Shown piece by piece: positions 2,273-21,559 of a stretch of 21,981 nt of DNA. The notes beneath the pieces are model-generated. The model did no database searches and had not been told where the DNA came from. It saw nothing but the letters and a program-made list of their open reading frames with translations. Position 1 is the stretch's first letter, and the number at the start of each line of letters is the position of its first letter. The stretch covers positions 1-21,981 of IMG/VR virus record IMGVR_UViG_3300041964_000134. One strand, written 5' to 3'. Origin of the DNA: a virus. Made by a program: the position numbers and the translations under genes.

Positions 2273-3499
2273 ATGGCATCCACTAGTCCGCAGCAGCTCA
2301 AGCCGCGAGCGCGACCTGGAGAAGCTGTTGGGCCGCGGCGATCGCGGCAGCGGTTGTCAAAGAGTAAGCGAGAGTTCGACCGGACTGCCCTAAGGAAGAC
2401 AGAACGCGTTCCTTTCTCACGGCCAGAGGGCAATCGTCACAGCCGATCTGGAAGGTCTCGCCTGGAGATCCTCGCGACGGATCGGATCCGCCGGCTCGCC
2501 ATTCAAACGCGTGTCACTTCGATGCCGATGAACTGCAGGATCTCATCGAGAGTCGTGAAAGAGCACGGCGTGATTCAGCCTGTGATCGTGCGCTCAGCGG
2601 ATGGCAAACGTCCTCGAGCTAATCGCTGGCGAGCGCCGCGGGCGAGCGGCACGGCTGCAGAAGGATATTCCGGTCGTCATCCGGGAAGCCACTGACGAGC
2701 AGGCGCTCGAGCTGCAGGCGATCGAGAATCTGCGGCGCGAAGATCTGAACGCGATCGATCGAAGCGACGAAGTATGAGCAGCTCATCGCCAGCTATACGG
2801 TGACACCATCAGATCGGCCGCGTGGCCGCAGTGGCAATGCTTCGAGGAGAAGCTCGGCGGATGAAGAAGACTTCAGCGAGTCTAGGCGGCTGACCTTGAC
2901 TCAATCTGCTCCAAAGTGCAGGAGCTGGTTTTGCGCAGGAAGCTGCCGCACAGCCACGCCGAATTGCAAACTAACCAACTGAACGATTCAGTATCACGGT
3001 CGCGCAGCTCGCAGCAGGTTCGCGGCGCCAAGGCGGACAAACGGGAAGCCGCTCGGGACATGTCCTTTCGGTTGCTGAAGCGGTTGTAAGCCAGGCAAAG
3101 GGCACGCGCAAAGAATCTCGCTGCTTGGCAGAAGAAGCGGCTGGAGTTCGCCGCGATGTCATCTCCATGTGCTGACGGCCGCTCGAAGCGGAAGAAGTGG
3201 ATCGGCTGGTCGCGTAGATGGTGGCTATCACTACCTCATGTCGGGAGCTCCATTCGTGAAGCGACGATAGCTGCGATATGTGCAGGCTCGAATTATCGAG
3301 AGAGTCACAAAAGCTCTGCGCACAGCACACCTGCAGTATCTCTCGGACGGGGCCCATCGGAGCCCCGGTGATTGACTATGATCGGAGCAAATTAGCGGAT
3401 GCGGCGGTGAAGGCTGGCGGAAACTGAACAAGCCTGGCGTCCCTCGACGAAATGCCGTCCGAGCAGGCTAAGTGCACAGGCCCACTAACCGCCGTCTGA
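2273..3499 (+). CDS. ParB/Spo0J-family partition-type protein, frameshifted
   Basis: ParB proteins bind centromere-like sites and use a ParB/Srx domain for CTP-dependent clamping. Read across frames, the signature is clear: an N-terminal DADELQDLIES stretch (about 2521-2556), VKEHGVIQPVIVRSADG, LELIAGERR (about 2610-2635), then a segment ending in IENLRREDLNAID (to about 2760) and a KYEQLIASY stretch before the HTH area. Around 2925-2975 a segment like VQELVLRRKLPHSHAEL matches the helical part that follows the HTH. The start at ATG 2273 and the end near 3499 are estimates. At least six frame changes are needed. The conserved motifs argue for sequence errors rather than decay. It belongs to the replication/partition-like left module together with the HerA-like gene. 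Confidence 0.7.
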
Positions 3500-3860
3500 G
3501 AGCGTCACACACGGCAATCCGTGTTGTAGTGCAGAACATGAGATACTCTACTCGTTCGTCACGTCTGGCGGTTCTTCGCCGCAGCTATGCTTGGGCAATG
3601 GCGATGCGCTCCTGTCACGCGACTGAGCAAACTGGCGGGGTTGGCGCGGAAACACCTGGGGCGAGAAGCTCTCAGACATGACGGTGCACGCACTCCGCGG
3701 CGTCTGCGGCGGAAATCCTGCTCTATTACGATGTGACCGAGCGACTACGGCCGACGAGTGGGGGAACACCTCGTTCAAAGCAGCTTGCGATCCTGTGCCA
3801 GGTGCAGCTCCCGTCATGGGGTGGCGACGAGGTCCAAGCGTGTCTGGAGATGATCGACGT
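3500..3860 (+). other. Unresolved, probably coding stretch with frame breaks
   Basis: No continuous gene can be read. Protein-like pieces appear in different plus-strand frames, for example a stretch with KLAGLARKHLGREAL near 3625-3670 and one with ILLYYDVTERL near 3715-3750. They may be the first part of the gene ending at 4103 or a separate one. No family is recognised. Confidence 0.3.
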
Positions 3861-4103
3861 GTGGAGTATCTAGATGAAGGGCCTATCAACTTCGAGCAGG
3901 ACGGTTTTTATCTGGTCCCTGGTATTTCGAATGCGCCGCCTATCTGCGCTTCGGGAAAGGCGCGAATTTCTCGCTGCGCATTCGCGCGCTGATGTACGAG
4001 CCAACAAAGTGGCTGCTCGAGTATCGCTTCCGCCTTTTTTCGCGACGTCGATCATAATCACCAGGATGAGCTGAACTCCTACGCTCTCACCTTTTCCGAG
4101 TGA
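3861..4103 (+). CDS. Small hypothetical phage protein, frameshifted
   Basis: The piece INFEQDGFYLVPG (from about 3886), a following piece with AAYLRFGKGANFSLRI, then EPTKWLLEYRFRLF and finally NSYALTFSE before a TGA at 4101-4103 read as one aromatic-rich protein of about 80 residues if two or three indels are repaired. The TGA overlaps the GTG of the next gene (GTGA), a coupling arrangement common in this window, which supports the reading frame of the 3' end. The start is uncertain; GTG 3861 is the first plausible one in frame and the gene may begin earlier. The family is not recognised. Confidence 0.4.
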
Positions 4104-4510
4104 CGAAACGAGCAGCGACAAAGCCTGCCCGCGTCTTTGAGATCCTCGTGGCGCTGGCCGGAATCGGTGCTACATATATCGCGCGGTCCGCGGCGACGCA
4201 GAACGCTGTGATGTACACAAGCTGGACGTCTGCCTATGTTTCATACAACACGGGTGGTCGTGTCGTGATTGTGGAGTTCACCGAAGTGCAGCGGCAAGCG
4301 ATCCTGCTTGCGCTGGCTAAGCTGTCCTCACGCGACCTGGCTGGCTTCACTGCACTGCCTCACTCGATCGCAGAGAGAGCATACCTGCAAGGAAGGCGAT
4401 GTATGAGTGTGTTCGATCGTTTGGCCCGGACATCCGATCCATTCATCGGCTTGGAAGAGGTCCACCATGGTCGCGTCCACAGGCGTTGCGCTCGGCAACT
4501 CTTATCGTGA
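4100..4510 (+). CDS. Small hypothetical phage protein, frameshifted
   Basis: Starts at GTG 4100, overlapping the preceding stop by GTGA. The N-terminal half reads cleanly, including YTSWTSAYVSYNTGGR and VEFTEVQRQAILLALAKLS. After about 4325 the sense frame changes (a piece RPGW, then MYE) and returns as FDRLARTSDPF before the stop at 4510. I recall a pattern of this kind (QRQALLLALAKLS followed by RPGW) from small phage proteins of unknown function. No catalytic motif is visible. It sits in a row of small genes leading to the HerA-like ATPase. Confidence 0.45.
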   Translation: MTKRAATKPARVFEILVALAGIGATYIARSAATQNAVMYTSWTSAYVSYNTGGRVVIVEFTEVQRQAILLALAKLSSRDLAGFTALPHSIAERAYLQGRRCMSVFDRLARTSDPFIGLEEVHHGRVHRRCARQLLS

Positions 4511-4551
4511 TCGCTGACTGGTTTACTGCTGGGCACGACCTGGGGACAGTT

Positions 4552-4738
4552 ATGAGGAAACGAACGAATCGACGAAAGGACTGTCGCCAGCATTGCCCAA
4601 AATGCGGGAAAGTACTCGATGCCGCAACAGCGTCGAAGATTCCGGAGATAGGCCGCGCATGGCAGTTTATCTGTCTGCTTCGACTGCGCAGAGCTGCTCA
4701 TGTTCGTCCAGACTAAAGCTCGAGCTCCTAGGCGATAG
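4552..4738 (+). CDS. Small zinc-ribbon protein, frameshifted
   Basis: From ATG 4552 the product carries CPKCGKVLDAATA (from about 4591). After one or two frame changes a second cysteine pair appears as CFDCAELLMF (from about 4678), ending RAPRR at the TAG 4736-4738. Two CxxC knuckles about 25-30 residues apart make a zinc ribbon of about 60 residues. Proteins of this shape are common as single small genes in phage early regions; their role is generally unknown (nucleic-acid binding or protein contact). It lies 24 bases upstream of the HerA-like gene and is probably co-transcribed with it. Confidence 0.5.
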
Positions 4739-4762
4739 AGTCGTGGGATCCCGCCCGACGCC

Positions 4763-5950
4763 ATGGAGACGCTTTTCAACTACAAAAGCGGTGCTGCGCC
4801 GATCGAGATTTGCAGCGCCCAAACCGTATGGCTGACCAATCATGAGCAACTGAAGATCTCCACGACCTATCCGCCCTCGATGCGGTGACGCAAAAGTTTG
4901 CGATCCTTGGGCGCACAGGCTCATGCAAAAGCTACGGCGCGACAAAGCTGTGTGAGGAGATGCTCGACGCCAGGCTCAGGTGGTCGCGCTGGATCCCGTA
5001 GGCGTTTGGTGTGGACTACGCACCGGCACTGCTGATGGCGACGGGTACAACATCCGGTGTTCGGCGGAATCCATGGCGACATTCCGCTCGAGCCTGAGGC
5101 TGTGCGATGATGGCCGATCTGATCGTAGAGCGAAATCTCTCTGCAGTGCGGATCTCTCGAACTTTCTCCTGCTGAGCAGCGCAGATTCGCGACTGCTTTT
5201 GCGATACAGCTCTTTCAGCGCAAGAGACGCAGCGCAGCCCGCTGCACGTCTTCTTCGAGAAGCGCAGGAGTTGTGCCCCAGAAGGTCGGCAGGAGTCGGC
5301 GAAGATGTCGGCGCGTTCGAACGGCTGATCAAGCTAGGGCGCAATTTCGGCATCGGCGCGACCCTGATCTCTCAGCGGCCGCAGGCAGTGAACAAGGATG
5401 TGCTCAACCAGACAGAGTGCTTGCTGGCCTTTCAAATGACGGGCCACATGAACGGAATCGATCGAGGGGTGGATCGCGGAGAAAGGAGTGAATGAGAACA
5501 TCGCCGACATTCTTCCACATCTGAAAATCGGATGTCACCTCTGGTACCTCAGTGGTTGCAGATCACCAGGCAGGTGAAGATCGCCAAAAGAAGACGGCTG
5601 TGTGAGCTCAACACCAAAGCCTGGCATGAAGGCGGTTGAACCTCAGGAGCTGAAACCGTGGAGCTGGAAGAGCTACGAGAGAAGATGGCAGGACGATCGA
5701 ACGCGCGAAAGCTGAAGATCCGAAGGAGCATCGCAAGGAACTCGCGGATGTGAAGCGCCGGCTGGCTGATATGGTGCAGCGGGAAGAGGAGAGATGAGAA
5801 GGAGCAGACTGCAGCGGAGTCGAAACCGGCGCCACGCCAGAAGAGTGGGAGCAGATTAGCTCTTGCAGTGGTGGCTCGAGCAGAGTTTGGCGTGCGACTG
5901 AATGCGACGGTGCAGACAGCTCTCCCGCAACTGTTCAGGCAGGGATCGAA
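4763..5950 (+). CDS. HerA-like (DUF87-type) P-loop ATPase, N-terminal and core part, frameshifted
   Basis: HerA/FtsK-like ATPases form hexameric rings that translocate DNA. Across frames the order is: METLFNYKSG from ATG 4763; FAILGRTGSCKSY (about 4890-4935), the Walker A region with Cys where Gly is expected; VVALDPVGVWCGLR (about 4980-5021); DLSNFLL as Walker B-side strand (about 5155-5168); an FFEEAQEL-type segment (about 5246-5270); then the clean stretch KLGRNFGIGATLISQRPQ (about 5332-5385) with the conserved SQRP, followed by NKDVLNQTE. A charged coiled-coil segment (LREKMAG, ELADVKRRLADM) follows to about 5800. Eight or more indels break the frame. It very likely continues into the frame at 5954-6565, which carries the family's C-terminal winged helices. 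Confidence 0.7.
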
Positions 5951-6681: not shown

Positions 6682-7440
6682 ATGACCAAAAAAGCAAGTT
6701 CCCATGAAAAACCGCAACCGGCGCCGCTGGCGTCGGGAATTCCAGTGCATTGTAAGTTCGATCGGATCGCGCCAGCGGCCGAGCTGAAGCTCTATCCTGG
6801 CAATTACCGTAAGCACCCAGCGAAGCAACTCGATCGGATGCACAAGGTTATCCAGGGAAACGGCTGGCGCCGGTCGGCCGTCGTCTCCTCGCTCAGCGGG
6901 TGTGTGACGAAGGGCAACGGCACCGTGCAGATGGCACAGCGGCACGGACTCGATGTCCCGATCGAGATCCAGCACTACCGGAATCGCGCAGAGGAGCTGC
7001 GGGACCTGGTTGCTGACAACAAACTTGCAGCCCTTGCGGAAGACGATGACGCGGCCCTGCAGAAGCTGCTCCAGGAACTCGATGCGTCAGAGCTGGAATT
7101 CGCCGCCGTGACGTCAGACGAACTCGAACGCCTGCTCTCGGAGACCGATGTTCCCGAGGGCGAGTTCCCGATCACCGCGAAACTCGGAGAGTCCTACGAC
7201 TACGTCCTCATTTTCACCACCAATGCCACCGAATATGCCTTCCTCCAAAACCTCGTCGGGATCCAACCAGAACGCAGCTACAAGAAAACCGGCGTCGGGC
7301 TCGGTCGCGCGATCCCGCTCGAGCGAGCCCTCGCCGCTCTCCGTGAAAATCGTCATTCCCTCGATGTCCAGGGCAGCAACGATGACCACTCACCGGCTAC
7401 TGCCAAGCGCGCTCGTGTGCGTGCCACGAAGCCAGGCTAA
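6682..7440 (+). CDS. ParB-like nuclease-domain protein (phage ParBc type)
   Basis: A 252-residue protein with a ParB-like N-terminal domain: YPGNYRKHP (residues 38-46), GWRRSAVVSS (61-70), SGCVTKGNGT (72-81) and ADNKLAALAEDD (111-122). The RKHP and GWRR signatures are typical of the stand-alone ParBc domains found in phages beside terminases and DNA-modifying enzymes, not of chromosomal ParB. The family-typical KGHG is KGNG here. The C-terminal half has an acidic linker and a segment with YVLIFTTNATEYAFL whose role I cannot name. It starts at ATG 6682, just after a candidate terminator. The glycosyltransferase gene starts inside its last 98 bases in another frame. Its role in modification is inferred from that neighbour. 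Confidence 0.8.
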   Translation: MTKKASSHEKPQPAPLASGIPVHCKFDRIAPAAELKLYPGNYRKHPAKQLDRMHKVIQGNGWRRSAVVSSLSGCVTKGNGTVQMAQRHGLDVPIEIQHYRNRAEELRDLVADNKLAALAEDDDAALQKLLQELDASELEFAAVTSDELERLLSETDVPEGEFPITAKLGESYDYVLIFTTNATEYAFLQNLVGIQPERSYKKTGVGLGRAIPLERALAALRENRHSLDVQGSNDDHSPATAKRARVRATKPG

Positions 7441-8104
7441 TGAATACGCGAAGGTCGTTGGGGCTGATCGCGTCTGGACGCACCCGGACGAGGTGAAGGG
7501 ACTGACGCCGAAGCTTAACTGGATGTTCGACTGCTTCGATCGTTGGAATGACGGGGATGCGCTCGTTTTCGTGGACGACGACATCCTCAGCGTGCAGCGG
7601 TGCTTCGTCGAGAAAGGCGAACCGGCAACTATCCGAGATCCGGAGCTGATCGAGGCGATCATCACGAACACCGCGCGCCTAGCTGCCGACGTTGGCGCAT
7701 TCTACTTTGGGTGGGAGGCGAGCAATGGCGCGCTCCGCTACTATACCGGTCTGAAGCCGTTCATGCTCACCGGCTACATCAACGGCTGTGCCATGGGGTT
7801 CCGGCGTGGCCACGGCTTGCGCTTCGACGAGCGGATCGTCGCGAAGAACGATTTTGATATCGCAGCGCAAAACGCATGGAAGCACCGGCTGTGCGTGAAG
7901 GATTGCCGCTACACCTTTTGCCAGAAGGAGACATTCACCGGCCGAGGCGGGCAGGCGGCGTTTCGCACCTCAGCGACCGAGAAGCGAGACGTTGTTCTTC
8001 TTCAAAAGAAATGGGGCGATCTCTTCACCTTCGGCGGGCACTCAGGCACACGGAAACGTGACTACGCGGGTGTGCAGAAAATTACCATGAATCTTCCATT
8101 CTAG
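7343..8104 (+). CDS. Predicted phage glycosyltransferase of the TET-associated (TAGT) type
   Basis: I choose GTG 7343 because the product then begins VKIVIPSMSR, matching the IPSxxR start strand of GT-A-fold phage glycosyltransferases; the ATG at 7382 would remove it. The 253-residue product has VCVPRSQANEY (25-35), LTPKLNWM (54-61), the metal-binding DDD at 78-80 in LVFVDDDI, FYFGWE (120-125), TGYINGCAMGF (143-153) and KNDFD (168-172). In the published proposal, TAGT enzymes add sugars to hydroxymethylated pyrimidines in phage DNA. No hydroxymethylating or TET/JBP enzyme is visible in this window, so the substrate is inferred. It overlaps the ParB-like gene by 98 bases and the frame is intact. 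Confidence 0.7.
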   Translation: MKIVIPSMSRAATMTTHRLLPSALVCVPRSQANEYAKVVGADRVWTHPDEVKGLTPKLNWMFDCFDRWNDGDALVFVDDDILSVQRCFVEKGEPATIRDPELIEAIITNTARLAADVGAFYFGWEASNGALRYYTGLKPFMLTGYINGCAMGFRRGHGLRFDERIVAKNDFDIAAQNAWKHRLCVKDCRYTFCQKETFTGRGGQAAFRTSATEKRDVVLLQKKWGDLFTFGGHSGTRKRDYAGVQKITMNLPF

Positions 8105-10119: not shown

Positions 10120-10854
10120 GTGCAACACAGCACCCCTGCAGAGATTATCGAGAAGCTCCGCAAGCTTCTACGTCTGGCATCCGACAAAGCCGCCACACAA
10201 GGCGAGGCGGAAGCAGCCATGCAAAAAGCGCAGGAGCTCGCGCTTCGCTACAAGGTCGAACTCGCCGGCATCAGTCATTCCGAGCGGCCGGCCGAGGAAT
10301 ACACAGAGGACCGCCAATCCCGACGGAAGACCTTCCAAGCCAAATACGTCGAGTGGATCGTCCGGAAGCACTTCAACGTCCACATGGTCCTCGGCGCGAA
10401 TGGCGAACTCTTCATCATCGGCAAGCCGACGGATCTGGAGTTTGCCAAGTGGGTCATGGAGTTCCTCGAGGCGGAGTTTCCGCGGCTCTGGACCCGTTAC
10501 CAGCGCGAGACGCAGTGCGGCCAAGGCGCGCGCGTGAACTATTTCTACGGCGTCTATTGCGGACTCGACGCGAAGCTCACCGAAAACCGCGAGCGGGTCG
10601 AAGGCGAGGCGATCGTCGAGGCGCAGATGAACGGCGACACCCGCATCGCCGCGAACTACCAACTTGCCGTTGTAAACGACAAAATGGCTCTCGCCGAAGC
10701 CGTCCTGAAGTTTCATCCGAACGTCAGAGCCGGCCGCGCCGCTAACCTCAACCTCCGTCACGGCAACGCCATCGCCGCCGGCAAGCAGGCGGGCCGCGAG
10801 ATCAATATTCATCGGCCGCTCGCCGGTGGCAAAGTCGCAGGGAGGCTCCACTAA
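10120..10854 (+). CDS. DUF2786 domain protein
   Basis: A 244-residue protein from GTG 10120. Residues 8-50 match the DUF2786 pattern (IIEKLRKLLRLAS, then AAMQKAQELALRYKVEL), a helical domain found in phage and plasmid proteins of unknown function. The remainder (RKTFQAKYVEWIVRKHFNV, FIIGKPTDLEFAKWVMEFL and a C-terminal GRAANLNLRHGNAIAAGKQAGREI) follows the layout of longer DUF2786 proteins, where the C-terminal part resembles a second conserved domain. No catalytic motif is certain. Its TAA overlaps the ATG of the next gene (TAATG). A duplicated leader segment lies directly upstream. Confidence 0.75.
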   Translation: MQHSTPAEIIEKLRKLLRLASDKAATQGEAEAAMQKAQELALRYKVELAGISHSERPAEEYTEDRQSRRKTFQAKYVEWIVRKHFNVHMVLGANGELFIIGKPTDLEFAKWVMEFLEAEFPRLWTRYQRETQCGQGARVNYFYGVYCGLDAKLTENRERVEGEAIVEAQMNGDTRIAANYQLAVVNDKMALAEAVLKFHPNVRAGRAANLNLRHGNAIAAGKQAGREINIHRPLAGGKVAGRLH

Positions 10855-11653: not shown

Positions 11654-11821
11654 ATGCGCGCACTTACTGTCTCCACACTTCACCGGCCGCGCCGGCGGGA
11701 CTACACACGCACTGCGCAGATCCGGCTCTCTGGCCGCTGGCTCGAGTCCGCTGGCTTCGAGGCTGGCAGCCGCGTCCGCGTTCAGGTGCAGCAAGGTCAG
11801 CTCATCATCACCGCGTCATGA
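11654..11821 (+). CDS. SymE-like toxin-fold protein
   Basis: A 55-residue product, too short for most gene finders. It reads MRALTVSTLHRPRR, then IRLSGRWLESAGFEAGSRV (residues 23-41), then VRVQVQQGQLIITAS. This is the SymE pattern: RLxGxWLxxAGFxxGxxVxVxVxxGxLxI. SymE proteins derive from the AbrB/MazE fold and include an SOS-induced toxin in E. coli; other members may be DNA- or RNA-binding regulators. The TGA overlaps the ATG of the AAA+ gene (ATGA), so the two are coupled. Its role beside a split RarA is unknown; toxicity is not established. Confidence 0.7.
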   Translation: MRALTVSTLHRPRRRDYTRTAQIRLSGRWLESAGFEAGSRVRVQVQQGQLIITAS

Positions 11822-12489
11822 CAAAGCGCGACAAGACACCGGCTGACAACATCTTTGGCCCCGCCGCCTCCATTCTGGAGGCGGCTCGGGGGCTGGTCAG
11901 TAAGCGCGATCGCGTTGCCCTTCTACTGGATGGCGACCCAGGCATCGGCAAGAAGCTGATTGCCGACCAGATCGCTTTGGAGCTGACCGGCTCCCCGTAC
12001 GCGATTGAGCTGACCAACGGCCAGAGCACCGGCGTTGATGTGGTCCGCGAATGGCGGGACCGCGGTTGCTATGGCAATCTGTTCTCGAAGTGGACCGTTA
12101 AGCGGATTGAGGAGATCGACCAGATGAGCGGCTCAGCGATGAGCGAGATGCTCACTTTTCTCGACACGCTTCCCGTCCGTCACGCGATCATCGCCACCAC
12201 CAACGAGTTCGCGAAGTTGCGCCAGCTCACGAAGGGTCGCCTCGAGTCCCGGTTTATCAGGCTCCCCGTAGATGCACCCACAGCCTCGGAAACTGCGCGC
12301 GAGCTGGTGCGTAGGTTCGGAATCCCTGCGGAGAAAGCGAAGATCATCGCGCGGGGCACAGTGCCCGACGGAATGCTCGACGGCTGCAACGTCCGAGCCG
12401 CATTCCACGACGCCGAGGCACTGCTGGCGGTGACCGCGTCCAAACGAATTTTCCAGACACTGTCTGGAAAATTGGAGGGTGCATGTTGA
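11818..12489 (+). CDS. AAA+ ATPase, clamp-loader/RarA-like motor domain
   Basis: A 223-residue AAA+ protein: Walker A GDPGIGKK (residues 39-46), Walker B VKRIEEIDQ (94-102), sensor-1 IIATTNE (124-130) and an arginine-finger region GRLESRF (140-146). A short lid domain follows. The fold and spacing match phage clamp-loader-like AAA+ proteins related to RarA/MgsA. The usual Ser/Thr after the Walker A lysine is Lys (GKK), which would impair Mg binding unless it is a base error. It starts at ATG 11818, overlapping the SymE-like stop, and overlaps the RarA-C gene by TGATG. The 27-bp palindrome lies in its last codons. Confidence 0.8.
   Translation: MTKRDKTPADNIFGPAASILEAARGLVSKRDRVALLLDGDPGIGKKLIADQIALELTGSPYAIELTNGQSTGVDVVREWRDRGCYGNLFSKWTVKRIEEIDQMSGSAMSEMLTFLDTLPVRHAIIATTNEFAKLRQLTKGRLESRFIRLPVDAPTASETARELVRRFGIPAEKAKIIARGTVPDGMLDGCNVRAAFHDAEALLAVTASKRIFQTLSGKLEGAC
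12447..12473. repeat. 27-bp palindrome before the RarA-C gene
   Basis: AATTTTCCAGACA (12447-12459) and TGTCTGGAAAATT (12461-12473) are exact reverse complements with one C between. It lies inside the end of the AAA+ coding sequence (encoding about IFQTLSGKL). It stops exactly where the ribosome-binding GGAGGG (12474-12479) of the next gene begins. It may be an operator or a mRNA hairpin tuning translation of the downstream gene. Confidence 0.65.
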
Positions 12490-15116: not shown

Positions 15117-17252
15117 GTGACTCCGACCACAGACCTTCCGACCGTTCCCGCCGACGGGCATTTCATCAAAGCGCGTGAGTGGCTGAAGCGCGTGGTGAAA
15201 GCCACCCTGCGGCCACGTCCGAAGATGCGGCTGTGGGAGTGGCTGGAGAAACACTTCGTCATTCCGCGGGAAGTTGATTCGCCGAAGCCTGGTCCTTACC
15301 GCACCTCCACGTTCCCGCCGATGCGCGGGCTCTTCGATCTGATCGATCAGCCTGGTGTCCACTTTTTCAGCTTCTGCTCGAGCGCGCGTATCGGCAAGAC
15401 GCTGCTCTCACTCGGGATCCTGTGTTGGTGGATCAGCGAGCGGTTCGGCACGGTGGTCTGGCTCGATCCGACACGGAAGACGGCCCTTCGCCTGGTCCGG
15501 ACCGAGCTCGAATACTTCCTCCTGCAGTGCAAGCCGGTCCGCGCACTGGCGATCATCAGCAAGACAACCTGGACGGTGCTCGAAAAGAGCTTCGTCGGGA
15601 AAGTCTTCCGCATCGTCGCGAGCGGCGCCGAAGCGGACATGCACGGCTATCAGGCGCGGCTCGTCGTCATCAACGAGTCGGATCGCTGCCGGCAATCAAT
15701 CGATCGCGACGCGGCCAGTGCTGACAAGGTCATCGCCCGATCGCGCCAGTTCGCTCATGAGCGGCTGATCGTCCGCAACTCCACGCCAACGGAGGAGTGG
15801 GGCGACATCTGGGTAAACTTCAAAGCGGATCCCACACTACTGTTACCTTCCGTGCCCGCACTGCAGCGACGATGCCGCGGCGAAGGTGAAGGCTGGCAAG
15901 CGGCTGCCGAGACACGCGCTCATCGATGAGACCAGCGGTGAGGTCCTCGCCGGCTTCCAGCGCCTGACGTTCTCGCCGGAGCAAAAGGACGTGCCGTTCG
16001 ACCTGGTCGGGCGGCCGCTGAAACCAGGCGTCGTGCGCACCGAGCAAACGGGGGGCGTCCGCTTCGATCAGTTCGCTGTTTACAAAGAGAAACGCGCCGA
16101 GGGGCACCGCGGCAAGACGGAGCGGGTCAAAGTCGGTTACGACATCACAGCCGTCGAGAATGGCGCGACCTACACCTGCGCGCACTGCAAGCGCGACATC
16201 GAGTGGGTGGATCTGAATGGCTACATGCTCCCGCGGTTTCGCTGGTGGTCGCACAATACGAGCGAGCTGCGCGACAAGAGCCACCTCTCGGCACATCTTT
16301 CGGCGCTCTATTCGCCGTTCGAGTTCTGGGGAATTCTGGCCGCGGAGTTCATCGGCGCCAAAGGATCGCAGGGCAAGCTGATCAAGTTTGAGACGCTCAC
16401 GCTCGGCCGGCCGAACATCCGGCACCGCGCGTCGATTCGGGAAGACGATCTCGATCGCGTCATTGCGCGCTGCCCTCATCGGTATGCCCAGGGCGAACTG
16501 CCGACGGAACCGGAGCTCCTCACGATGACTGTCGATCGCCAGGGCGATCAGATGTGGTTTGTGATCAGAGCTTGGGGCATTCTTTGGGATCACCCGGATC
16601 GGCCGACCTGGAGCGCGCTCGTGGATTGGGGCGAGTGCGTGAGTTGGGAGCAGGTTGAGGAACTCGCAGGCCTGCGCGAGCGCGCCGATGGGACCGTGCG
16701 CACGTTCAGCTACGCGCGGAAGATGGGACGGTTCGCGAGTATTGCGTTACAGCCGGGCTCGTCGATTCTGGTTTCGAGCCGCGAGTCGTGTACGAGTTCT
16801 GCCTGAAGTGGGCGCACATCTTCAGCCCGTACAAGGGCGGCGACGCCAGCAAGACGCGCGGCGGGCTCATCTATCTCGCAAAGATCCTGGACGACAAACT
16901 CGACCTAGTCTGGGCGTGGTCCGACCACTTCACCAGCCAGCTCTACTACGCCGCGCCTGCGCGACGGCCGCAATTCCATCGGCGACCTCATTCACTGGTG
17001 GCTTCCGGTCAATATCGACAGCCACTACCGCCTCCAGCTCACGTCCGAGAGGCAGTCGAGGAGAACGGGAAGATGATCTGGAAGGCCGTGAATGATAATC
17101 ACCTTGGCGACTGTGAAAAGATGCAGGAGGTGCTTAGAGATACGATCGAGGAACGCCTCGACGCCCATCGCAAAGAGCGTCTGCTGCTGGAGGAAGACAC
17201 CACAGAGCCGGAAGGCGATATGTCGCCGGCAGTGCTGCAGCCGCACGCGTGA
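15117..17252 (+). CDS. Phage large terminase, GpA family, frameshifted
   Basis: GpA-type terminases package DNA using an N-terminal ATPase and a C-terminal nuclease. Visible marks: FFSFCSSARIGKTLLSLG with the Walker A GKT (about 15364-15417), LVVINESDR as the Walker B-like strand (about 15660-15685), and an ARSRQFAHERLIVRNSTPTEEWG segment (C-motif area). Zinc-binding CPHC (about 15856-15867) pairs with CAHC (about 16180-16191). The nuclease part has TVDRQGDQMWF, DWGE and, after a shift, AGLVDSGFEPRVVYEFC, then HIFSPYKG and NDNHLGDCEKM. Frame changes lie near 15832, 16743, 16955 and 17045. The reconstructed length is about 710 residues, near family size. GTG 15117 is tentative; open sense sequence extends upstream to 15075 without a start codon. 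Confidence 0.85.
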
Positions 17253-18848: not shown

Positions 18849-19015
18849 AAGCAACGTGCCCGCCCAAAGACCGCTGCCCTGCATGCCGCAGCAGGTCCAT
18901 GCCGGGAAGCGTTCGGCAGATCCTCTGTACCTGGTTCGAACCGGTAGCCGCGATTAAGCGGCCAGTGCTGGCGAACGGCCGTTCCGCTCCAGGATCTTCT
19001 TCGTGCCCGCGATGA
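18845..19015 (+). CDS. Possible small Cys-rich protein
   Basis: ATG 18845 overlaps the preceding stop (ATGA). The 56-residue product starts MKATCPPKDRCPACRSRSMP, with two cysteine pairs in the first 15 residues that could bind zinc. From 18954 it overlaps the end of a convergent minus-strand gene, so the C-terminal part may be read-through of an indel. Coupling by overlap is the main support. Confidence 0.35.
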   Translation: MKATCPPKDRCPACRSRSMPGSVRQILCTWFEPVAAIKRPVLANGRSAPGSSSCPR

Positions 19016-19338
19016 CTTCGAGACGGACGCTTTCAACGCCATCTTGCCATGGCGTCGAAGTGAGCGTGACCAGGCGTTGCTCGAGCCAATCAAGCACTCG
19101 CGGATCCGACTCCGGCACCCATCCGGAGCGGCCTTCGAAGGAGTAACCGCTGCAGAGGCAGTAGTGCGGGAGGGTGAACTCTGCTCCATTTTCCATCCGC
19201 ACCGTGCATTCCCGCTCCTGCATAGCGACCACGAGAACGAAAGGCATCGTCGGGCAAGCCCGCGAGCGCGTGGGACTCGCACGGGTAGTCCACCCAGGCA
19301 TGCATGCCGGGGGTTATGGCGAGTTTCTTCATCATCAT
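18954..19338 (-). CDS. Hypothetical protein, one frameshift
   Basis: From ATG 19338 (ATG triplets also at 19335 and 19332) the product starts MMMKKLAITPGMHAWVDYP. It then crosses one frame change near 19250, where an extra T in a T-run explains the shift, and continues FVLVVAMQERECTVRMENGA, LPHYCLCSGYSF, a WVPESDPRVLDWLEQRL segment and a C-terminal helix. The reconstructed length is about 128 residues. No family is recognised. It is coupled to the upstream membrane-protein gene, whose TGA lies within its ATGATGATG start. It runs opposite to the surrounding head genes. Confidence 0.5.
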
Positions 19339-19579
19339 GCGCGAGAGGAAGGTTCACTTTTTGCATCTCGCTTCAACATCCATTCTCCCAACTGACGCAC
19401 CATAAACCCGCCCAGCATCGTCAGCCAACCGATGTTGAAGAACAGGCTCCTAGACTCGTCTGAATTGTCCGGGAGAAGAGCTCTTGCAAGAAGAAAGCGA
19501 ACCCGCAGCCGAGAATTGTCCCGGATACATAGATGAGATAACGTGGACTAAGATACGCAAAGAAGTGCTCCCAAGACAT
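19335..19579 (-). CDS. Small two-helix membrane protein, one frameshift
   Basis: From ATG 19579 the product starts MSWEHFFAYLSPRYL. It has a first membrane helix (YLIYVSGTILGCGFAFFL) and, after a frame change near 19450, a second (SLFFNIGWLTMLGGFMV). It ends with a charged tail (LGEWMLKRDAKSEPSSRA) at TGA 19335-19337. About 80 residues with two helices and a charged C-terminus fit a holin-like or small-effector membrane protein, but no family is assigned. The longer frame starting at 19726 includes sequence upstream of the plausible start. It is transcribed away from the portal operon, from a shared intergenic region. Confidence 0.5.
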
Positions 19580-19663
19580 GCGACTTTGTCGCAGAGTGCA
19601 AGAGACATGAGGGCAGCCGACGTGTTGCGTGCAGTGTAAGTCGCTGAAAATCAGTAAATCCGC

Positions 19664-19706
19664 CTCCACATGTGTGGAGCTGGAGCCCGGTTGACATCCC
19701 CCGGGC
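19664..19706. promoter_or_regulatory. Two dyads between divergent genes
   Basis: CTCCACA (19664-19670) and TGTGGAG (19673-19679) form an inverted repeat with two bases between. Next to it GCCCGG (19685-19690) and CCGGGC (19701-19706) form a stem around a ten-base loop that contains TTGACA. The minus-strand pair starts at 19579 and the plus-strand connector gene at 19711, so this is the likely shared control region. No confident -10/-35 pair could be set. Confidence 0.35.
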
Positions 19707-19710
19707 GGCA

Positions 19711-20001
19711 ATGACCGCCGCCTCACTTCGTTCCGTCTGCGACTCTCAGATCGAGCGCGGCCACCGCAACTTCGTCGAGCAGCTCGAGGAGCGTGCCCTC
19801 GCCAAGATTGCTTCCGGCGCCGGCGAAATTGCGCCGGTCGGCGAGGGGTCGCTCAATGGGCAGCAATTTTCTCGAGAGATTCGGCTCGATTGTACTCAGG
19901 TCGCTGAGATCGCACGCGCCGCGTTGGATGCAGCGGACGGGGATCCCAGCGGCGGATCCACGGGCATCACCTTTATCGACTTCAACCAGGCGCTGCGATG
20001 A
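19711..20001 (+). CDS. Small protein at the head-tail connector (gpW-like) position
   Basis: A 96-residue product from ATG 19711; an in-frame upstream start at 19672 lies inside the dyad region and is less likely. It has an N-terminal helix region (SLRSVCDSQIERGHRNFVEQ), an acidic C-terminal half with ARAALDAADGD and an end TGITFIDFNQALR. The gene order terminase, small gene, portal is where lambda-like phages carry gpW. The sequence itself does not clearly match gpW, so the assignment is positional. The stop overlaps the portal start (ATGA). Confidence 0.45.
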   Translation: MTAASLRSVCDSQIERGHRNFVEQLEERALAKIASGAGEIAPVGEGSLNGQQFSREIRLDCTQVAEIARAALDAADGDPSGGSTGITFIDFNQALR

Positions 20002-21559
20002 ACCTCGCATCCTTGTTCGGTCGCATTGCTGGCCGCGGCGGCAACGCTTTCAACGAAACGATCGCCGCATCGATCGACCGGGCCAACGTCCGGTTTATAC
20101 TGCCTGCAGATTCGACGCTCTATCTCAGCGAGCGCAGCCGCACCGCGATCAACGAGAAGGTCGAGTGGATCTGGCAAAACTTCGGCGTGGTGAAAGAGGG
20201 CGGGGCTGGCATCGCCGGCATTCTGTGGGGAAGGGGATCAGCTCGAGCTGAATACTTCGATGAAGAGTGGGATCGGGACGCTGAAGACGATTTCGAGGAT
20301 TACGCGCTCACGCCCGAGCGGTGCGACCTAGCAGGCCGCGCAACGTGTATGAGGCGCAGACGACCGGCATCGAGCAGCGGATCTTCCGCGGCGAATTCTT
20401 TGCCGCCAAGACCGAGAATCCTGAGTGGGACAACGAGCCATGCTTTCAGCTCTACGACTCGCAGGAGATCGTCTCGCCGGCAGATCTGGCTGGTCGCAAG
20501 ATCATTGATGGCGTCGAGGTGAACGCAGCCACGCGGGCGCTGCGCTATTTCGTCCGCAATGACTCAGGCGGCACGAGCCCCATCGAGCGCGCCCGGATGA
20601 TTCATTGGTTCAAACCGCACGCCGTGAACCAGGTCCGCGGCATTTCCGACATGGCGCAGGCGGTGAATCCACTCGTCGATATTCACGAACTGAAGCGGCT
20701 CACGACTCGCAGCGCGAAAGCATCGCAAACTGATCACGCTGGTGCTGAAAGGCATGGGGAAGACGAAGGGCCGCGGCGCGATGGGATCGATCAAGTCCGG
20801 CGCGCCTGGCGCTGGGCAGGAAGCCGCCACGGATACAGCGCAGCTCGAGCAGCTCGCGGGCGCGGCCGGTGCAGGCATCGCGTATCTCAATGCCGACGGG
20901 GAGGCACAGCTCCTCACGCCGAAATCTCCGACGCCGCTGGTCGAAGGCTTCATTACGACCTCTTAATGCGCGACGTGTGCGCCGGCTGGGGCGTGCCTGC
21001 AGAATTCTTCTGGTCGATCGCCAAGCTTGGCGGCGCAAACACGCGGTTCGTGCTGAGCAAGGCCGACCTCCTTTTTCAGATGCTTGCCGACGGGCTCATC
21101 TACCGCTTCTGCACTCCGATCGCGTACCGCTACCTGAAGCATCGGATTGAGACGGGCAAGCTGCGCGCTCCGAAAGATCCAGACTGGGCGCGCAAGATGA
21201 GCTGGCAGACGCCACCGCGCGTGACCGTGGACAACGGCAACGAAGGTGCGCTGCAGATCGAACTGCTCGCGAATGGCCTCATCACTCTCCGCCAGTACTG
21301 CAATGCGCGCGGCCTGAACTACCGCCATGAAATGCGGCAGTGGATCCGCGAGCCGATCGAGTTTGTGAAGATGGCTGCCGTCGAGCTCAAGGGCGCGGAC
21401 ATTCCCCAGGACGTGAAAGACAAAATCCTCGAGCGCTGGAGCACGAACCTCCCGATCTGGCGCGCAGCCAAGCCCGGAGCGGTCACGGCCCAGCCCAACG
21501 AAACAGAGGCACCGCAAAAGCCAGGTGCCACCACTGAGGAAGAGAAAGAAGCCGCATGA
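19998..21559 (+). CDS. Phage portal protein, lambda family, frameshifted
   Basis: Portal proteins form the dodecameric DNA entry ring. The gene starts at ATG 19998. Family marks in order: KVEWIWQNFGVVKEGG, a SVGKGISSS piece in another frame (about 20219-20245), WDRDAEDDFEDYALTPERCD, RNVYEAQTTGIEQRIFRGEFF, ARMIHWFKPHAVNQVRGISD (the conserved RxxGxS region), then a piece with LVLKGMGK and IAYLNADGEAQLLTPKSPTP in a second frame (about 20730-20960), and finally YDLLMRDVCAGWGVPAEFFW, then DNGNEGALQIELLANGLITL and REPIEFVKMA. Frame changes lie near 20215-20250, 20332, 20718 and 20960. Total about 520 residues, normal for lambda-family portals. Confidence 0.85.

Follow-up and report, generated by a model that had tools for sequence, protein, structure and literature searches.

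A ParB-like protein paired with a TAGT-family glycosyltransferase as a candidate TET-independent DNA-glycosylation module of phages

We analyzed a viral genome fragment of 21,981 bp (IMG/VR record IMGVR_UViG_3300041964_000134, referred to as the window), in which a ParB-like gene is followed on the same strand by a glycosyltransferase gene (Table 1). The glycosyltransferase reading frame was first listed as 7148-8104. The GTG codon within it (Table 1) is most likely the true start, since all close homologues begin at the corresponding sequence, MKIVIPSMSR, and from this codon the gene shares 98 bp with the ParB-like gene. Both genes are under purifying selection, with dN/dS values of about 0.09-0.15 for the glycosyltransferase and about 0.11-0.35 for the ParB-like gene. 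The terminase of the window lies ∼7 kb beyond the pair and does not directly adjoin it. This gene, the portal gene (19998-21559) and a canonical ParB-like ORF (1991-2777) are each split over several frames in the window and are whole in relatives, which suggests indel sequencing errors or decay in the assembly. Unlike these ORFs, the pair is unbroken in the contig. A DUF2786/DUF7168 protein (10120-10854; PHROG 421, function unassigned) is conserved 3′ of the pair in the window clade. Further downstream, an ORF at 12483-13040 matches the C-terminal domain alone of the AAA+ ATPase MgsA/RarA and is adjoined by a separate AAA ORF (11818-12489), an arrangement that is kept in relatives.

Table 1. 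Coordinates of the paired genes, their domains and motifs, and the terminase gene in the window.
Feature	Position	Strand	Description
ParB-like gene	6682..7440	+	252 aa; ParB/sulfiredoxin-fold domain (about residues 25-159) plus C-terminal domain
C-terminal domain of ParB-like protein	7159..7347	+	approx. residues 160-222; LxExYDYVLIF...GxGR; from alignment and reciprocal search
TAGT-family GT-A glycosyltransferase	7343..8104	+	253 aa, GTG start; PF20691, PHROG 842, AlphaFold model
VDDD, metal/nucleotide-sugar binding DxD motif	7571..7582	+	TAGT residues 77-80; D78 and D79 invariant in 67 TAGTs
KNDFD, position of GT2-type catalytic-base motif	7844..7858	+	putative catalytic role, by reference to GT-A/GT2 families
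Terminase large subunit (gpA type)	15117..17252	+	in three frames here; ORF list, Pfam, PHROG

The initial annotation had placed the glycosyltransferase in the TAGT family on the basis of the motifs IPSxxR, VFVDDDI and KNDFD. All three are present in the protein, the first as IPSMSR, and the family assignment was upheld by profile searches and structural modeling. With Pfam PF20691 the protein scored 49.7 bits, well above the cut-off of 27.5 (E = 5.5e-13), in an alignment that spans profile positions 2-205 of 205. It also matched PHROG 842, which holds the T-even beta-glucosyl-HMC-alpha-glucosyltransferases, at 4e-21. An AlphaFold model generated with 66 relatives as input (pLDDT 88.2, pTM 0.88) adopted a GT-A fold, and its comparison with solved GT-A structures gave Z scores of 13-15. 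At the position of the catalytic-base motif, KEDYD is seen in 57 of 67 TAGT homologues and KNDFD in nine. With a GT-A fold, a DxD motif and a PF20691 match above the cut-off over the whole domain, the gene product is a genuine GT-A glycosyltransferase of the TAGT family (PF20691). A sequence search of solved structures found no sequence relative of the protein. The best solved matches of the model were peptide GalNAc-transferases and polysaccharide synthases, and the fold is that of a generic GT-A enzyme, while the closest viral models were phage TAGTs, among them a Klebsiella beta-glucosyl-HMC-alpha-glucosyltransferase and phiRSL1 proteins.

Assignment of the upstream gene to the ParB family, as judged from profile matches and a structural model, is correct but remote. 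A Pfam search of the window protein returned no match to ParB_N or HTH_ParB. PHROG ParB families matched it down to 7e-19, and a profile built from its relatives matched structures of Spo0J, Noc and ParB (1.7e-13 for Spo0J). Residues 25-156 of its AlphaFold model could be superposed on ParB/Noc CTPase folds (Noc, Z 11.6, rmsd 2.4 over 129 residues). Box II of the window protein reads GNGT and lacks the NTP-binding Arg of the GxxR motif, which most relatives keep. Nucleotide switching may have been lost in the window clade, because replacement of this Arg in those ParB folds that have been tested abolishes NTP binding (PMC12704722). We ruled out a role as the canonical partition protein, given the lack of an HTH, the GNGT box II and the presence in relatives of a separate ParB with HTH_ParB. 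The lineage has this second, canonical ParB (ParB_N and HTH_ParB), followed by a HerA/DUF87-type ATPase, 5′ of the pair (about 2400-5500 in the window; L002:5327-9086 in a further locus). Members of the ParB-like family also share a C-terminal domain with the consensus LxExxNYVVLxFDNxxDW...GxGRVxxG, which, among the loci tested, occurs beside TAGT genes only. We propose this domain as a candidate docking segment for the glycosyltransferase.

We then determined how widely the two genes occur together. A set of 167 TAGT loci was assembled (62 groups at 70% identity, with relatives 22-87% identical), which was seeded from the window and Javan291 TAGTs, both with ParB neighbors, and places the T-even branch outside the sample. 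A ParB-like gene was found directly upstream and on the same strand in 157 of these loci, mostly overlapping the TAGT gene or within 30 bp of it. Of the 10 exceptions, eight begin no more than about 700 bp from the end of their contig, and in one of these eight the upstream gene is another TAGT, a tandem copy; in the other two the TAGT match lacks its first 78 residues. Chance adjacency is negligible, because matches to the ParB profile number just 166 among the ORFs of the whole set. In a reverse search of viral contigs with the ParB C-terminal domain alone, a TAGT lay immediately downstream in 78 of 79 loci, in some as the first of two, and the remaining locus held too little sequence; several contigs are shared with the forward set, and the reverse test is thus not fully independent. 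Further cases are the Streptococcus prophage Javan291, the Microbacterium Quhwahvirus and the Microbacterium phage DelaGarza (gp61-gp60), the last found from the ParB side by similarity. A search of GTDB genomes for host prophages, run with two alignments, gave pattern matches and no confirmed relatives. In three loci (L168, L176 and L268) the TAGT reading frame is in three pieces, for which frameshifts or the insertion of an element may be responsible. Within the sampled branch the pairing is close to universal, a statement that does not extend to all TAGTs, as T-even TAGTs are known without a ParB partner. The overlap of the two genes and their functional pairing, both put forward in the initial annotation, are supported.

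A terminase cluster lies downstream of the pair in 43 of the 62 lineages, and the pair precedes the terminase genes in Javan291. Clustering of all ORFs within about 7 kb across the 62 lineages showed wide recurrence for the ParB-like gene and packaging genes alone, and revealed no shared handle-making gene. DUF5131 and DUF932 were rejected as shared partners, each occurring in single relatives only. In one ParB-TAGT phage, a LAGLIDADG-like domain occurs within the terminase large subunit (L129:10428-12944) and probably represents an intein or an inserted homing endonuclease. At least 16 loci carry tandem TAGT pairs directly after the ParB-like gene (L053, L055-L057, L184, L220, L249, L252, L260 and others), as expected for two sugars added in turn. 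In Quhwahvirus, a UDP-glucose dehydrogenase-like gene directly follows the TAGT gene (L046:6699-7481; gp86 of Microbacterium phage Phrancesco), hinting at a glucuronic-acid donor.

DNA had been suggested as the substrate of the glycosyltransferase at the outset, and relatives of the ParB domain make it a plausible target. Its closest named relatives form the N-terminal part of phage adenine methyltransferases (37-63% identity). In ct3Oc712, Javan117 and Gardnerella phage AB1, the gene for such a ParB-methyltransferase lies ahead of that for the terminase large subunit, as the ParB-TAGT pair does. The 252-aa ParB-like protein itself contains no methyltransferase domain detectable with Pfam or PHROG. 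ParB_N genes also adjoin CmoX, a proven phage cytosine carboxymethyltransferase (PMC12783734), and the characterized T-even TAGTs act on DNA-borne sugars, in the form of glucosyl-5hmC (PMC13216743). In the gene neighborhoods, each type of transferase is accompanied by genes for donor supply: a gene for SAM synthetase adjoins one ParB-methyltransferase gene, and the UDP-glucose dehydrogenase-like gene adjoins the Quhwahvirus TAGT. The related ParB domains, the same pre-terminase place, the CmoX neighbors and the donor-supply genes suggest, by analogy, an exchangeable ParB-addressed DNA-modification slot in phages. Our preferred reading, to which we give a probability of roughly 55%, is that the ParB-like protein and the TAGT constitute a TET-independent, two-protein module for the glycosylation of phage DNA. 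The generic GT-A fold and the box II of the window clade, without its nucleotide-binding Arg, count against this reading.

The main rival to DNA glycosylation is a protein target of the TAGT, of phage or host origin, such as one involved in packaging, the capsid or host defense, with the ParB-like protein as the substrate or as a DNA-bound scaffold. The best fold match of the TAGT model is to a peptide GalNAc-transferase (Z 14.9, with 210 residues aligned at an rmsd of 3.5). Capsid modification is the presumed role of phage glycosyltransferases encoded close to virion genes (PMC4351075), and the module adjoins terminase genes while no DNA acceptor can be named. However, the module is found upstream of the terminase, outside the capsid and tail genes; the ParB domain of its partner is shared with DNA methyltransferases; and both the sequence family and the closest viral models are those of TAGTs acting on DNA sugars. 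We consider a protein target unlikely on balance.

In classical hypermodification, a phage TET/JBP oxygenase or a hydroxymethylating homologue of thymidylate synthase makes 5hmC or 5hmU, which a TAGT then glycosylates. This was the route favored in the initial annotation, in line with the Pfam family being named for its association with TET and with the use of glucosyl-5hmC by T-even TAGTs (PMC13216743). The window is a fragment, and genes for such enzymes may lie beyond it in the same genome. We searched TAGT records, most of which are also fragments; absence here means no recognizable member of a family. Neither Tet_JBP nor the thymidylate synthase/hydroxymethylase profile (PF00303, Thymidylat_synt) matched any of 71 records, closed circles included. 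As a positive control, the Tet_JBP search matched Mycobacterium phage Nigel, which we take to carry a TET/JBP gene, at 4e-8. A C5 methylase was present in one of 50 records and was not found in the other 49, circular relatives among them. Identical ends of 127 bp suggest that two relatives, of 44,239 and 40,817 bp, are closed circles, and a pair of overlapping contigs can be joined into a circle of 43,449 bp. A comparison with Pfam covered all called genes of the 44,239-bp circle except one on the minus strand (18967-20403), a putative integrase by its position and strand, and showed no TET, thymidylate synthase, DNA methyltransferase, alpha-GT or beta-GT. The early halves of the other circles likewise contained no such hydroxylating, methylating or glycosyltransferase gene. 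The decoration of hydroxymethylated bases by this TAGT is thus not supported: the hydroxymethylating enzyme expected elsewhere in the genome is missing from the circular relatives, while the 22-kb window covers just part of its own genome. We regard the classical route as quite improbable. The same result weighs against the DNA-glycosylation module, in that the known TAGT reaction requires glucosylated 5hmC as its acceptor while no recognizable enzyme for hydroxylated bases, alpha-GT or beta-GT is found.

Least probable of all, in our estimate, is that the pair glycosylates a nucleotide, a nucleic acid-bound small molecule or a cell-surface polymer, since the pair has no link to surface-polymer or nucleotide metabolism and such a role would not be expected to involve an obligate partner with a ParB fold, although similar GT-A enzymes use many small and polymeric acceptors, as illustrated by the match of the TAGT model to AvpGT solved with the nucleoside analogue Ara-A (Z 13).

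If the two proteins do form a DNA-glycosylation module, the ParB-fold protein would address the DNA, and its C-terminal domain would recruit the TAGT into a physical complex. The TAGT, as a metal-dependent GT-A enzyme, would move a sugar from an NDP-sugar to an acceptor on the phage DNA, presumably as the late or packaging phase begins. The handle on the DNA could be either a group of a canonical base or a base altered by an unrecognized enzyme, and the sugar would probably hide the phage DNA from host nucleases, in an anti-restriction role. Also conceivable, though in our view rather doubtful, is a self-sufficient route that skips hydroxylation, in which a ParB-guided GT-A enzyme attaches the first sugar straight to a canonical base or to another native group of the DNA and a second tandem TAGT sometimes extends it. 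Glycosylated DNA is a prediction for ParB-TAGT phages, and Quhwahvirus, DelaGarza and Javan291 are cultured phages in which the DNA is open to direct analysis.

A recent survey of 753 phage genomes found solitary TAGT homologues, with neither an alpha-GT nor a beta-GT, in 288 of them and marked these homologues as potentially new transferases (PMC13216743). One large branch of these now gains a near-obligate partner, and the TET name does not describe this branch. We found no description of an obligate ParB-TAGT pair in the searchable literature, where an earlier mention of the link may nevertheless exist. Many uncultivated phages carry this tight unit of a ParB-fold protein and a TAGT with no recognizable base-hydroxylating enzyme, and may sugar their DNA by a route that has not been worked out. 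Should DNA prove to be the acceptor, the pair would represent a compact two-gene route to sugar-coated DNA, of use in base-modification chemistry and in understanding anti-restriction.

The T2/T6 beta-glucosyl-HMC-alpha-glucosyltransferase shares with the window TAGT the PF20691 domain, the PHROG family, the GT-A fold, and DDD and ED-type motifs. Unlike the window branch, it extends alpha-glucosyl-5hmC by a second glucose and requires a dCMP hydroxymethylase and an alpha-GT, genes that are missing in relatives of the window, where the ParB-like partner is near-obligate instead. Cytosine hypermodification by phage TET/JBP enzymes is the source of the TAGT name, whereas ParB-TAGT records carry no TET/JBP homologue (0 of 71). 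The carboxymethylcytosine system CmoX/CmoY resembles the pair in having a ParBc-fold gene beside a phage enzyme that modifies DNA bases (PMC12783734); CmoX, however, is a Cx-SAM-dependent C5 enzyme, and 49 of 50 ParB-TAGT records have no C5-MTase-like gene. The closest ParB domains, with up to 63% identity, are found in the phage ParB-N6/N4 DNA methyltransferase fusions (PHROG 498), several of which lie upstream of terminase as the ParB-TAGT pair does. These fusions carry their methyltransferase in cis, whereas the ParB-TAGT pair employs a separate glycosyltransferase and a ParB-like protein with a different C-terminal domain.
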